Origin: Psychroflexus planctonicus
GTDB lineage: Bacteria; Bacteroidota; Bacteroidia; Flavobacteriales; Flavobacteriaceae
Reading direction: 5' to 3'
Assembly: GCF_014640195.1 (NCBI RefSeq)
Contig: NZ_BMGM01000005.1
Coordinates: forward strand, 186,001-250,000
Length of the DNA stretch: 64,000 bases
Shown: piece by piece, positions 1 through 57,637 of the stretch
Layout: every line of letters begins with the position of its first letter
Position numbering within the stretch: position 1 is the first letter of the stretch
Translations under genes and position numbers: made by a program
Notes under the pieces: model-generated
What the model saw: only the letters and a program-made list of their open reading frames with translations
Told to the model about the DNA's origin: nothing
Database searches by the model: none

Positions 1-1674
1 ACACTAAGTCCAGCGCTTTGTGCTTTGATTTTCAAACCCAAAAATCAGCAGAAAAAATCTTTTTTAAATCGATTTTATACTGCATTCAATACAGGATTTG
101 ACGCCACAAAACAAAAATACTCCAAATCGCTTGGCTTTTTAATTCGCTACAAATGGATAAGCTTCGGAATATTGGCTCTTGCCATCGGTGCTATTTTTTG
201 GATAGACAATAGCACACCCAAAGGTTTTGTCCCGACCGAAGACCGTGGCGTCATTTTCATGAACGTAGAACTTCCACCCGGCGCCAGTTTAGATCGAACT
301 TTTACAGCGACCGACAGCATTTATCAAAGCATAAAAAAAATCAAAGGTATTCGGAATGCTTCCATCACCAGCGGACGAAATTTCTTCGCCGGTTCAGGAA
401 GCTCTTACGCACAAGGCTTCATCATTTTAGATGCTTGGGAAGAACGCACAAGCGATGAAACCAGTGTTGACGCTTTAATCGCTAAAATGAATGAAGCAAC
501 AAGTGATATTTACGATGCCAACATCATTTTTTTCACACCATCAAGTGTTCCGGGATATGGAAGCGCCGATGGATTTGAAGTGCAATTAGTCGATCAAAAA
601 TACGGTAGCTTAGACGATTTAGACAAAGCAGCAAAAGAATTTGTGAGCCTACTAAATCAAGATCAACGGGTTGCTTTTGCATCCAATTCCTTCAACACTA
701 ATTTTCCACAATTGCGATTGGATATTGATGTGGCTAAAGCTAAAACCAGCGGAATACAAATTAATAATATCGTAGGAACACTTCAGGCTTACATCGGTGG
801 TTTTTACGTAAGCGATTTCAACCGATTTGGAAAACAGTTTCGGGTTTTTGTACAGGCATATCCAGAAGACCGACAAAAAATAGACGATCTGAACAGTATT
901 TTTGTGAAAACGCAAAACGAAGAAATGGCACCCATCTCTGAATTTGTGAGTTTAAACAAAGTTTACGGTCCACAAACGGTAAAACGCTTCAATTTGTTTA
1001 ATGCAGTTGCCATCAATGGTTCATCTGCACCCGGATTTAGCTCGGGAGAAGCAATTGAAGCCGTTCGGGAAGCAGCGGAACAACTCCCCAATAATTATGG
1101 AATCGATTTTTCTGGAATCACACGTGAAGAAGTAAACGTAGCAGGTCAATCTATAATTGTATTTTTACTTAGTGTGTTGTTTGCCTATTTCTTCTTAGCT
1201 GCACAGTACGAAAGTTATTTGCTTCCATTTGTGGTCATTTTATCTTTGCCAACTGGAGTAATGGGCGCCTATTTAGTTACCTTTATCTTTGGTTTAGAAA
1301 ACAATATCTATTTTCAAATCGCTTTGGTAATGCTGGTCGGTTTGTTGGCTAAAAATGCTATTTTAATTGTAGAATTTGCTATTCAACGCAGGCGACAAGG
1401 CTACAGCATTGTGCGCTCTTCTTTAGATGCTGCCAATACTAGATTACGCCCGATTTTAATGACTTCACTGGCATTTGTGCTTGGTTTGTTGCCTCTGGTT
1501 TTAGCGACAGGTGTTGGAGCAAAAGGAAACCAATCCATCGGAACGGGAGCTGCCGGTGGTTTACTAATTGGTACTATTTTCGGAATATTTATCATTCCTG
1601 TATTCTTCAGTATCTTTCAATTTCTACAGGAAAAAATTACAGGTAAACCCGAAATTACAAAACCAACTGAATGA
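1..1674 (+). CDS. RND efflux transporter permease, HAE1/AcrB type (5' truncated by window edge)
   Basis: This is the C-terminal 557 residues of an inner-membrane proton-driven drug/solute exporter of the AcrB type. The reading frame is already open at base 1 and begins with TLSPALCA, the conserved end of a membrane helix in the middle of AcrB proteins, so the start codon lies upstream of the window; the TTG at 25 is not the start. What follows is the second periplasmic porter/docking half, then helices 8-12, with the family signatures AQYESYLLP, GLLAKNAILIVEFA and RPILMTSLAFVLGLLPL. The stop overlaps the next gene's ATG (ATGA), which encodes the matching outer-membrane factor, so the two are translationally coupled parts of one tripartite pump. 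The periplasmic adaptor is presumably upstream. Substrate cannot be inferred. Confidence 0.95.
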   Translation, partial: TLSPALCALIFKPKNQQKKSFLNRFYTAFNTGFDATKQKYSKSLGFLIRYKWISFGILALAIGAIFWIDNSTPKGFVPTEDRGVIFMNVELPPGASLDRTFTATDSIYQSIKKIKGIRNASITSGRNFFAGSGSSYAQGFIILDAWEERTSDETSVDALIAKMNEATSDIYDANIIFFTPSSVPGYGSADGFEVQLVDQKYGSLDDLDKAAKEFVSLLNQDQRVAFASNSFNTNFPQLRLDIDVAKAKTSGIQINNIVGTLQAYIGGFYVSDFNRFGKQFRVFVQAYPEDRQKIDDLNSIFVKTQNEEMAPISEFVSLNKVYGPQTVKRFNLFNAVAINGSSAPGFSSGEAIEAVREAAEQLPNNYGIDFSGITREEVNVAGQSIIVFLLSVLFAYFFLAAQYESYLLPFVVILSLPTGVMGAYLVTFIFGLENNIYFQIALVMLVGLLAKNAILIVEFAIQRRRQGYSIVRSSLDAANTRLRPILMTSLAFVLGLLPLVLATGVGAKGNQSIGTGAAGGLLIGTIFGIFIIPVFFSIFQFLQEKITGKPEITKPTE

Positions 1675-53668: not shown

Positions 53669-54859
53669 TCAATACATAAAGCCAAAAAGCCAAATAGGAA
53701 TTACATTCCCAAAGCCAATTTCAATTCCATCTTTTGCAATGTACGCGTCTGAAACTCCCGAAATCTGTTTTCGGGTTTTGCTTTTACCACCAATTTCAAA
53801 AGTATATTTTTGGTTGATGAGGAAATCGGCTTGCTGTGATAAATGAACTTGGTGCACATCTGTAAATTGATTTAAAAAAAAGGTTTCTCTTATGTTACCC
53901 ACATTCGTGTTTACTTTAGCTAATGTGTACATTAAATTGGTGTTGTGTAAGTACAATTTTTCTGGTTTGGTTAAGACGCCTATTCCTTTTGTGTTTTTAT
54001 AAAGCTCAATCATTAAATTAGCTCTGCACAGTACTTTTATAGCATGAACAAGACTATTTCTGGTCAGTCCGATTTTTTCACTCAATTTTGAAATATTTGG
54101 TGTGAATGGCGCACTTGATGCAACTGCAATCAGTAATTTTTTTAGCCTTACTAAGGTGTCAAAACTCATATCTTCTATCGCATTAATATCCGTTTCAATT
54201 ACTAAATTGATGGTATTTAGTAGTTTTTGGGAATAAGCATCTTCATTTTCGATAAAATAAGGATATGCACCGATTTTTAAGTATTTGTCAAACAAAGCTA
54301 GAGGTTTGATGGATTGCAGTAATTCATTTGAAATGCTTTGGTGGTTGTTCAGGATATCTTCAAAAGAATAAAAGGGTAATTTTTGCTTCGTTTCTAATTC
54401 AATAAATTCTCTAAATGATAATTCTTTTAAATGATAGCTAACCGCTCTTCTACTTAAATCAGATTCAGATTTATATATCTGCAACAATGACGATGATGTA
54501 AAAATTACTTTTAGATTAGGAAAAGTATCGTAGATTAGTTTTATTTCTCTTGACCAATTTGGGTATTTGTGTACTTCATCTAACAAAAGGAACTTGCCTC
54601 CAAAAAGCTCGAATGTTTTTGCAAGTTCAAATAAAGTTTTATCATAAAAGTAAATGTGATCTAAGCTTACATATAAACTACTATTGGTGGGCAAATGAAA
54701 CTTTGCCAATTGCAGAAGTAAGGTGGTTTTGCCTGCACCGCGAGCTCCTTTTATCGCTATCAGTCGATTATTTAAGTCTAAATTCTGAAGTAAATAACGC
54801 TCAAAATCTTTTGATACGCCCAATAATTTTTGCTGAAATTCTAATTGTAAGTCTTCCAT
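53669..54859 (-). CDS. AAA ATPase with DUF4143 C-terminal domain
   Basis: A 396-residue ATPase of the family often labelled archaeal-type AAA/DUF4143. Walker A is GARGAGKTT (residues 38-46) and Walker B FLLLDEVHK (90-97). A winged-helix segment lies in the middle (ISKLSEKIGLTRNSLVHAIKVL), and the C-terminal part (HQVHLSQQADFLINQKYTFEIGGKSKTRKQ) has the DUF4143 nuclease-like fold, with the ordering ADF..FEIG-K of a PD-(D/E)XK core. Biological role is not established. Its promoter is covered by three evenly spaced 17-bp palindromes, an unusually elaborate control region for a single gene; the winged helix makes self-regulation possible. Confidence 0.87.
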   Translation of the reverse strand: MEDLQLEFQQKLLGVSKDFERYLLQNLDLNNRLIAIKGARGAGKTTLLLQLAKFHLPTNSSLYVSLDHIYFYDKTLFELAKTFELFGGKFLLLDEVHKYPNWSREIKLIYDTFPNLKVIFTSSSLLQIYKSESDLSRRAVSYHLKELSFREFIELETKQKLPFYSFEDILNNHQSISNELLQSIKPLALFDKYLKIGAYPYFIENEDAYSQKLLNTINLVIETDINAIEDMSFDTLVRLKKLLIAVASSAPFTPNISKLSEKIGLTRNSLVHAIKVLCRANLMIELYKNTKGIGVLTKPEKLYLHNTNLMYTLAKVNTNVGNIRETFFLNQFTDVHQVHLSQQADFLINQKYTFEIGGKSKTRKQISGVSDAYIAKDGIEIGFGNVIPIWLFGFMY

Positions 54860-54861
54860 AG

Positions 54862-54942
54862 TGCTTTTATAAAAAGCAAATATACAAATATAATGCTTTT
54901 TTTAAAAGCACTTTTAATATTATTTTGCTTTTTCAAAAAGCA
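54862..54942 (-). promoter_or_regulatory. Array of three 17-bp palindromes at 32-bp period over the DUF4143 ATPase promoter
   Basis: Three copies of TGCTTTT-N3-AAAAGCA occupy 54862-54878, 54894-54910 and 54926-54942. Start-to-start distance is exactly 32 bp both times, about three helical turns, so all sites face one side of the DNA. Two tandem minus-strand -7 boxes TATATTTG (complements of 54885-54892 and 54877-54884) lie between the first two palindromes. The third site can extend to 9-bp arms. Confidence 0.75.
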
Positions 54943-55189
54943 ATGTTGATATTATCAAATTTTAAAACTAAACTTGATAATTATAGTGGTGTATGCTTCC
55001 TTGATCACTTTTTATTCAAGGAATTTAAATTCATCAACAATCAAAAACATCCATCTTTAGTCTTCCCAGAATGGAATAAGTTCGGTTTGAATTTATATTT
55101 AAAGCCGTTTTATGTAATTCAGATTTAACTATCAAAAATAGTTTATAGAATAATTAAGTTCATTTCAATATAAAAAAGCGAAATTCCAT

Positions 55190-55197
55190 TACTTTTG
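55190..55197 (+). promoter_or_regulatory. -7 promoter box of the exonuclease III gene
   Basis: TACTTTTG matches TAnnTTTG and ends 17 bases before the ATG at 55215, leaving a short 5' leader. No clear -33 partner is seen. Confidence 0.4.
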
Positions 55198-55214: not shown

Positions 55215-55976
55215 ATGAAAATACTTTCCTACAACGTCAACGGAATTCGCGCAGCTTTAAAAAAAGATTTGATCAGTTGGTTGAAAGCAGCCGATGCAGA
55301 TGTGGTTTGTTTTCAAGAAACCAAAGCCCAACCCGAACAAATAGACAATTCGCTTTTTGAGGACATTGGATACAAGTATTGCTATTGGTTTTCTGCCCAG
55401 AAAAAAGGCTATAGCGGTGTGGGAATCATCAGCAAAACTGAACCTAAAAATATAGTGTACGGAACAGGAATAGATTATATGGATGCAGAAGGGCGAAATC
55501 TCCGTGCCGATTTTGAAGAGATTTCCATCATGAGCATGTATTTGCCTTCGGGAACAAATGATGCTCGATTAGATTTTAAATTGAAATATATGGACGATCT
55601 TCAAACCTACATCAATCAATTAACCAAAGAAGTTCCCAACTTAAACATTTGTGGCGATTACAATATTTGTCATGAACCCATAGACATTCACGATCCAGTT
55701 CGACTCAAAAATGTATCTGGATTTTTACCTGTTGAACGCGAATGGCTTTCAGCCTTTTTAGCAAGTGGATTTACAGACACCTTTCGTTTGCAACATCCAG
55801 AAGAAACCGCTTATTCGTGGTGGAGTTACCGTGCCAATGCAAGAGCCAATAACAAAGGCTGGCGATTGGATTATCATTTATTAGCCAATCACTTACAAGA
55901 TAAAATAAAACGAACAGCCATCTTGAATCAAGCCAAACACAGCGATCATTGTCCTGTACTTTTAGAACTCAAATAA
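55215..55976 (+). CDS. xth: Exodeoxyribonuclease III (AP endonuclease family)
   Basis: Cuts at abasic sites and trims 3' ends in base-excision repair. The 253-residue protein has the exonuclease-endonuclease-phosphatase fold: SYNVNGIRAALKK with the conserved Asn, VVCFQETKA with the metal-binding Glu, ICGDYNICHEPIDIHDP with the catalytic Asp-Asn, WRLDYHLLA with Asp, and the terminal SDHCPVLLEL with the Asp-His pair. All catalytic residues are present. It is followed after 43 bases by an OmpA lipoprotein gene on the same strand. Confidence 0.95.
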   Translation: MKILSYNVNGIRAALKKDLISWLKAADADVVCFQETKAQPEQIDNSLFEDIGYKYCYWFSAQKKGYSGVGIISKTEPKNIVYGTGIDYMDAEGRNLRADFEEISIMSMYLPSGTNDARLDFKLKYMDDLQTYINQLTKEVPNLNICGDYNICHEPIDIHDPVRLKNVSGFLPVEREWLSAFLASGFTDTFRLQHPEETAYSWWSYRANARANNKGWRLDYHLLANHLQDKIKRTAILNQAKHSDHCPVLLELK

Positions 55977-57127: not shown

Positions 57128-57376
57128 ATGGAAACAGTTAATTATACAAATTTTCGTTCAAATCTAAAGCATTGGTTTGATAAAGTTGTGGATGATGTAA
57201 GCGACATTATCATTAAACGCAAAAATGGTAAAGACCTTGTTTTGATATCATTAGACGAATACAATTCTTTAAAGGAAACATCTTATCTGTTGACAGGTAA
57301 AAATAGAGATGTTTTATTAAACGCTATTAAAGAACTGGAATCAGGAAATGGGACGCAAAAAGACTTAATCGAATAG
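57128..57376 (+). CDS. yefM: YefM/Phd-family antitoxin (second module)
   Basis: An 82-residue antitoxin of the same family as that at 10562. The fold is visible in VNYTNFRSNLKHWFDKV and KRKNGKDLVLISLDEYNSLKET, and the C-terminal third is charged. Its stop codon directly adjoins the toxin ATG. The N-terminal DNA-binding half differs from the first module, matching the different palindrome in its promoter, so cross-regulation between the two modules is not obvious. Confidence 0.9.
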   Translation: METVNYTNFRSNLKHWFDKVVDDVSDIIIKRKNGKDLVLISLDEYNSLKETSYLLTGKNRDVLLNAIKELESGNGTQKDLIE

Positions 57377-57637
57377 ATGAAATTAACTTGGTCAACTTCA
57401 TCTTGGGAAGATTATTTGTATTGGCAGAAAGTTGATAAAAAAATAGCTAAGCGAATAAATGAACTTATTAAGAGTTGCATGCGAACACCTTTTGAAGGAA
57501 TTGGAAAACCCGAAGCTTTAAAAGGTGACTTACAAAGGTATTGGTCTAGGCGAATAACATCTGAACATCGATTGGTTTATAAATACGATAATGAACACAT
57601 TATGATAGCAGCTTGTCGTTACCATTACGGAAAATGA
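57377..57637 (+). CDS. yoeB: YoeB-family mRNA interferase toxin (second module)
   Basis: An 86-residue YoeB toxin. SWEDYLYWQKVDKKIAKRI, TPFEGIGKPEALKGDL, YWSRRITSEHRLVYKY and the terminal CRYHYGK reproduce all conserved positions, including the catalytic Glu, Arg, His and C-terminal His-Tyr. It is similar to but clearly diverged from the first copy (10818). It is read from the same transcript as its antitoxin, then followed at once by a palindromic repeat. Confidence 0.92.
   Translation: MKLTWSTSSWEDYLYWQKVDKKIAKRINELIKSCMRTPFEGIGKPEALKGDLQRYWSRRITSEHRLVYKYDNEHIMIAACRYHYGK

Follow-up and report, generated by a model that had tools for sequence, protein, structure and literature searches.

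A palindrome array upstream of a STAND-like AAA_14 ATPase gene in Psychroflexus planctonicus as a probable gene-specific self-operator

Three perfect 17-bp palindromes of the form TGCTTTT-N3-AAAAGCA lie directly upstream of the gene for an AAA_14 ATPase in the window, the whole stretch of 64,000 nucleotides of Psychroflexus planctonicus DNA that was analysed; the array is real and non-random, and its best explanation appears to be that a STAND-like ATPase regulates its own gene through an operator specific to that gene. Very probably, the palindromes together form this operator, to which the ATPase would bind through its recognition helix, thereby blocking its own transcription. The palindromes, all located by exact sequence match and assigned to neither strand, occupy positions 54862..54878 (TGCTTTTATAAAAAGCA), 54894..54910 (TGCTTTTTTTAAAAGCA) and 54926..54942 (TGCTTTTTCAAAAAGCA); their starts are 32 bp apart, and they are separated by AT-rich 15-bp spacers. 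The ATPase gene (396 aa, 53669..54859, minus strand), assigned by profile match and structure model and proposed here to encode a self-binding repressor, has its ATG 2 bp from the end of palindrome 1; palindrome arms are found at this one side of the gene only.

The three palindromes and their exact 32-bp period had been described in an earlier sequence-only reading of this DNA, and the sequence confirms both; they are the only exact copies of TGCTTTT-N3-AAAAGCA in the entire genome of 3.11 Mb on 34 contigs. Sites with one mismatch number seven elsewhere in the genome, compared to six for a reversed-pattern control, so that nothing elsewhere stands out; within the window, loose matches with up to three mismatches (26 vs. 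20.5 expected) remain at chance level. The genome scan that the same reading had recommended thus yielded three exact sites and nothing further beyond background, and a regulon of such sites in this genome was rejected. The -7 box has the consensus TAnnTTTG, and two boxes of this type, both TATATTTG, are recognizable by sequence on the minus strand. The last two bases of the proximal box (54877..54884) also open palindrome 1, such that the TG of the box is the minus-strand TG of the palindrome; a second -7-like box (54885..54892) abuts the proximal one inside the 15-bp spacer. Both boxes postulated earlier are therefore present, but side by side without the overlap proposed for them; palindrome 1 shares its TG with the proximal box, the second in reading order.

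The predicted ATPase matches the Pfam family AAA_14 (PF13173) with 101.1 bits (E 5.9e-29), above the curated cut-off of 27; its earlier designation as a DUF4143 ATPase holds clearly for the ATPase part, but the DUF4143 score (PF13635) of 16.8 bits falls below the cut-off of 28.1. Eight homologs scored between 15.9 and 37.5 bits against DUF4143, and two of them (L033 and L185) exceeded the cut-off; because the homologs straddle this limit, the window protein borders on DUF4143. Conservation identifies a Walker A motif, GARGAGKTT, at residues 38-46 (54722..54748, minus strand), in which G38, G41, G43, K44, T45 and T46 are invariant in 73 sequences. In the AlphaFold2 monomer model (mean pLDDT 90.7, pTM 0.90), residues 256-286 (54002..54094, minus strand) form a winged helix-turn-helix, consisting of a helix (256-263), the recognition helix (267-279; RNSLVHAIKVLCR; 54023..54061, minus strand, with the N268 codon at 54056-54058) and a wing strand (283-286); the same segment holds the co-variation peak obtained without the 389-aa clade. 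Foldseek places the ATPase model near DnaA and Cdc6/Orc1, and its structural neighbours also include SSO1545, CED-4 and NLRs; judged from this monomer model, the combination of an NTPase fold with a winged helix as in CED-4 and SSO1545 would make the protein a member of the STAND/NLR type. The C-terminal domain (53672..54001, minus strand; model pLDDT 73.6) shows conservation of D345, E355, GG357-358, K361 and Q365. Although D345, E355 and K361 are kept, EIGG stands in place of the E-X-K of PD-(D/E)XK-type enzymes; the top fold matches are restriction enzymes at E 0.12 and above, and the domain, without a significant fold match, is nuclease-like at best.

The array has counterparts at the promoters of related ATPase genes. 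The discovery set of 190 hits was reduced to 183 by length and duplicate filters, to 179 by requiring at least 110 bp of upstream sequence, and to 170 by removal of near-duplicates. The array score counts, over the 28 letters of four half-sites, those matching the consensus of these half-sites; scores of at least 25 were reached by 102/219 genes, compared to 3/876 shuffles and 0/876 AT-matched flank windows, and the strong palindrome pairs in these 102 genes are spaced 31-34 bp. At a score of at least 24, the numbers are 139/219 genes, 24/876 shuffles and 27/876 flank windows; the remaining 80/219 genes score below 24 and are without a clean array by this measure, and no convincing array was seen at the promoter of a homolog on an Aliarcobacter plasmid. 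A chance origin of the arrays is excluded. Among 106 genes, palindromes with at least 6/7 paired positions average 2.24 per promoter vs. 1.10 in shuffles, and their centre distances peak at 32 bp (18 vs. 1.0) and 33 bp (11 vs. 0.45). Two 18-bp palindromes sharing one common half-site and separated by 15 bp occur in 46/170 genes (0.2 expected), and the corresponding 17-bp arrangement occurs in 18/170 genes (0 expected); peaks at double the period indicate that third copies are present.

The period of 32 bp had been read as three helical turns that would align dimers on one face of the DNA. Most of the family conforms, with a best period of 32 or 33 in 126/158 genes scoring at least 24; in 9/158 the best period is 29, and seven of these nine fit an LLDxLD-type helix pattern. 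Conversely, the 12 LLDxLD-pattern genes with scores of at least 24 comprise seven with a 29-bp period, three with 32-33 bp and two with other periods. The second copy of the gene in the genome of P. planctonicus itself, on contig 1, belongs to a subclade with a 29-bp period; three 18-bp repeats at -78, -49 and -20 are spaced 29 bp, with a different and lopsided word, TGCTTT...TTAACA, and a palindrome score of just 23. Because this subclade uses 29 bp, "three turns, one face" is not a rule. The layout persists across the family while the operator word varies by gene (TGCTTTT, TGTTGTT, TGCACTA, TGATCTT, TGACTTG, TGTCGAA and others); the comparison of ortholog promoters, in which absence of the sites or their spacing was to count against the array, thus found the spacing kept and the word changing. 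A start with TG was found in 67/80 first-set genes scoring at least 25, a count that includes a small tie-break of 0.6 in favour of TG starts, applied in the first-set word listing and in the hold-out; without the tie-break, 91/100 Arg267 genes with scores of at least 25 keep a best or tied-best half-site starting with TG or CG. A distant branch with 37-42% identity (L111, L117, L120, L123, L125, L127, L128) carries, in place of a 32-bp array, one longer palindrome (TTTGC-N12-GCAAA type) before the -7 box.

Homologs are patchily distributed; at E <= 0.001 they occur in 20/60 genomes, the source genome included, at E <= 1e-30 in 62/395 genomes of Bacteroidia, and at E <= 1e-80 in 42/299 genomes of another order, where, as in the Bacteroidia survey, copy numbers per genome are lower bounds based on the first four or six candidates scored. 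The best 80 of 560 named-contig homologs are mostly from Bacteroidota; single records from Treponemataceae, Lentisphaeria and Fibrobacter also carry promoter pairs (scores 23, 25 and 24). Plasmid homologs amount to 34 records, in 26 of which a single locus spans at least 80% of the query; phage homologs are limited to one record, and viral homologs to four loci, one at 24% identity, after a first viral scan with a single protein as query had found none. The close homologs L209, L210 and L211 (45-47% identity) lie on contigs classed as viral, which are possibly prophages.

In many genes the arrays hold a fixed position relative to the -7 box. A TAnnTTTG box is found within the last 130 bp in 120/139 genes with scores of at least 24; in 48 of these 120 genes the TG of the box is precisely where the nearest operator begins, and in 35 further genes the operator begins 30-33 bp before this TG. 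Bound protein would lie over both the -7 element and the start of transcription, and the overlap with the -7 box supports the earlier suggestion of a multi-site operator over the promoter, as far as sequence can indicate. In the 389-aa clade, the two sites are found upstream of the -7 box; because of this position, activation is possible in that clade.

That the ATPase itself reads the operator is indicated by the co-variation of the operator word with the recognition helix. Operator similarity was compared with per-window protein similarity, controlling for whole-protein identity, in 94/170 genes that score at least 24 and have half-sites starting with (T/C)(G/C). Without the 389-aa clade (n = 77), the best protein window is residues 261-271 (EKIGLTRNSLV) with a partial r of 0.242, compared to a permutation maximum of 0.19 (100 permutations, on a subsample of windows); with all 94 genes, window 173-183 ranks first (0.281) and the recognition helix forms the second peak (0.233). 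Residues 165-185 were rejected as the reader, being on top only when the 389-aa clade is included. Single-column mutual information without this clade ranks column 224 first, followed by 145 and 271, with 268 in twelfth place; by column sum, 268 is second in the same set, and in the full set of 94 genes the highest mutual information belongs to columns 294 and 297.

Residue 268, the second of the recognition helix, is linked to half-site position 3. Asn268 is found in 40/45 genes with C at this position, vs. 11/49 without (94 genes); counted from the protein side, 54/67 Asn268 genes have C3 compared to 5/52 non-Asn genes, leaving 13 and 5 exceptions among 119. Of the closest matched pairs, 27 agree in N268 and C3, none disagree and 16 are unchanged, which is the strongest combination among 5,678 residue-base combinations leaning one way; the number tried is larger, and these are closest pairs, not tree pairs. 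Columns outside the helix also lean strongly in this ranking (H173/T3 18:0, K253/C5 18:0, K241/T3 21:1). On a tree of a quick kind, from which the winged helix was left out, there are at least 24 changes of Asn268 and at least 21 of C3; among 11 independent tree pairs on supported branches, on average 6.4 change the same way, 0.0 the opposite way and 4.6 not at all (median p 0.031, range 0.008-0.375). Column H173, the only one of the outside-helix columns 173, 241 and 253 covered by the tree test, is a weaker rival, with 3.3 same, 0.3 opposite and 3.5 unchanged of 7 pairs and a median p of 0.25. The hold-out genes repeat the pattern, with C3 in 14/16 genes with Asn268 vs. 0/9 without; from 65 raw hits, 49 were kept after removal of five discovery-like sequences, nine duplicates, one short sequence and one with too little upstream DNA, and 25 of the 49 have usable operators, representing new genes rather than new clades. 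The neighbouring Arg267, present in 207/219 genes, is associated with the outer TG of the operator, and sites of the type ATCAA..TTGAT accompany 8/8 proteins with Leu or Ile at 267 vs. 2/207 with Arg267, although the eight may be one clade. A nominal association of H266 with A4 (8/10 vs. 33/109) was discarded, being without support on the tree.

Co-variation, hold-out and tree pairs thus support the earlier suggestion that the ATPase could bind the sites through its winged helix; since the word tracks the protein's own recognition helix, it is most likely the ATPase that binds to the promoter of its gene and represses it. The proposed operator overlaps the gene's own promoter and appears to match its own reading helix, as in an autoregulated repressor; binding by the ATPase, dimer stoichiometry and repression rather than activation are what we infer from these patterns. 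The recognition helix would be the part with which the ATPase, probably as a dimer, binds each palindrome of 17-18 bp, and dimers on adjacent sites would probably touch; the protein at the promoter-proximal site would cover the -7 box and transcription start and block transcription of its own gene. The gene would thus silence itself by means of an operator word of its own, and the words of its relatives would have changed as the recognition helix changed. As a guess, the nucleotide state or a trigger might release repression.

The most obvious competing explanation, already raised as an alternative in the sequence-only reading, is that an unlinked repressor, and not the ATPase, binds the palindromes; 17-bp palindromes are used by many repressors, and binding by the ATPase is itself deduced from sequence. 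Yet the word varies by gene and follows residue 268 of the ATPase, and even within one genome the words differ (0/37 paralog pairs have a word in common), so that every copy in a genome would require its own repressor; a single unlinked repressor for the whole family is very unlikely, and an unlinked repressor at the window gene is highly improbable. For the 37 paralog pairs, the genome of each locus was assigned by hand. Tandem ATPase genes in the same orientation with different operator words occur in three places (L017/L034 on G024 C19, L036/L016 on G012 C3, L052/L089 on G184 C2). Selection for differing words among co-resident copies was considered and is not claimed, because such copies are no less alike than matched cross-genome pairs (p 0.39).

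An assembly role deserves somewhat more weight while still being unlikely; the array could mainly serve as a platform on which the ATPase oligomerises in the manner of DnaA or Orc1, remodelling DNA or sensing a state, with a secondary effect on transcription. The structural neighbours of the model, the two or three evenly spaced sites and the invariant P-loop residues agree with such a platform, but the exact -7 box offset in 48/120 genes is directly explained by transcription control. Activation by the ATPase of its own or its neighbour's promoter would fit the 389-aa clade with both sites upstream of the -7 box; it is improbable in view of the proximal site covering this box in the window and in the same 48/120 genes, and of the exoIII promoter, which is kept in a P. 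salis stretch where no such sites were seen. Finally, the patchy distribution of the family would be compatible with palindromes that are remnants of mobile elements or RNA hairpins, but the fixed period, the fixed -7 box offset, a word that tracks a protein residue, and the restriction of the arms to one side of the window gene make this scarcely credible. Self-repression by the ATPase remains the preferred reading.

The array belongs to the ATPase gene, and not to the divergent exoIII gene (55215-55976), which has its own -7 box (TACTTTTG, 55190-55197). Homology of P. salis to this region begins at 55178, and the matching box TACTTTTG precedes exoIII there; palindromes of the TGCTTTT type were not seen in the P. 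salis stretch before exoIII. An empty site that would mark a clean insertion at the exoIII locus cannot be read, because collinearity with the P. salis counterpart is lost upstream; the region adjoining exoIII thus shows no clean empty site either way. Shortly past exoIII and an OmpA-family gene, the window contains a YefM/Phd antitoxin and YoeB toxin pair (57128-57637, plus strand; Pfam E 1.4e-16 and 1e-39).

The earlier suggestion of a defence role finds its one point of contact in the resemblance to candidate models; in PADLOC, the window protein matches seven PDC-S01 models (best E 2e-23, residues 26-327), which are without a curated cut-off, and it resembles PDC-S01 in this way yet stays under the Pfam DUF4143 cut-off. 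The neighbouring genes do not point to defence; taking the two nearest ORFs at each of 46 loci, 62 PADLOC families were matched (E<=1e-10), each by one of the 92 neighbours and none by more, in a comparison without a background set. PDC-S01 is reported to rank fourth by frequency among candidate defence systems in prokaryotes, and most of these candidates are described as unvalidated; the available part of this description does not mention operators (PMC12988326).

The archaeal ATPases SSO1545 (2fna) and PABY2304 (2qen) resemble the window protein in fold, at about 18% identity. The winged helix of NLR proteins is usually a structural element; compared to STAND/NLR proteins (CED-4, RPP1) and Orc proteins, the winged helix of the window family seems to be a sequence reader instead. 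Type II toxin-antitoxin systems and phage-type autorepressors also repress themselves via several palindromes at their own promoters, and related copies have diverged in specificity; in contrast, no partner gene is proposed here, and the ATPase itself would be the repressor. In the available portions of the respective papers, potato Rx1 binds DNA via its NB-ARC domain without a defined operator (PMC4599002), and the mycobacterial signal-transduction ATPase regulator IniR, whose ATPase domain was modelled on SSO1545, controls a promoter; IniR differs in having a separate C-terminal DNA-binding domain and in targeting another operon, iniBAC (PMC5760070). A prior account of the operators described here was not found in the titles, opening parts of abstracts and selected passages of the freely available, published papers searched.

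If the interpretation is true, a STAND-type winged helix acts as a sequence-specific and readily re-targeted reader, and the dozens of natural half-site words constitute a ready specificity table; the self-operator would also provide a concrete and cheap handle on PDC-S01, in the form of a specified DNA site, a residue predicted to read it, and a promoter that could report on the trigger. A wider generalization is offered tentatively, and may well prove wrong; in the very large family of lone NLR-like ATPases, the winged helix might serve as sequence reader, a private and fast-changing operator array might self-silence the gene, and the arming nucleotide switch might also free the promoter, so that one protein would combine sensor, repressor and effector, and private words would stop cross-silencing of co-resident copies.

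Genes found with the DUF4143 model (n = 68) show a similar arrangement. Among their palindrome pairs a period of 32 bp is the most frequent (20 genes vs. 1.3 in shuffles), no other period from 20 to 59 bp exceeds six genes, and their words include TGGATTCAAATCCA and TTTGGATTCTATTCCAAA; self-operators with a 32-bp period thus seem to be shared by a considerable portion of the superfamily. A DUF4143 gene of Thermus thermophilus (TT_P0211) appears with the value 6.6 in a table on expression changes in the presence of plasmid DNA (PMC4406477). The DUF4143 genes L304, L305, L307, L335, L346, L350 and L352 have a long inverted repeat near the start and no paired palindromes; several of these inverted-repeat genes have a TGPRQSGK-type P-loop, and the repeat may be a self-operator of a different form. 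An ATPase of a second kind, with a DUF4143 score of 64.5 bits that exceeds the cut-off, is encoded on contig 5 at 262190-262687, approximately 21 kb from the window gene.
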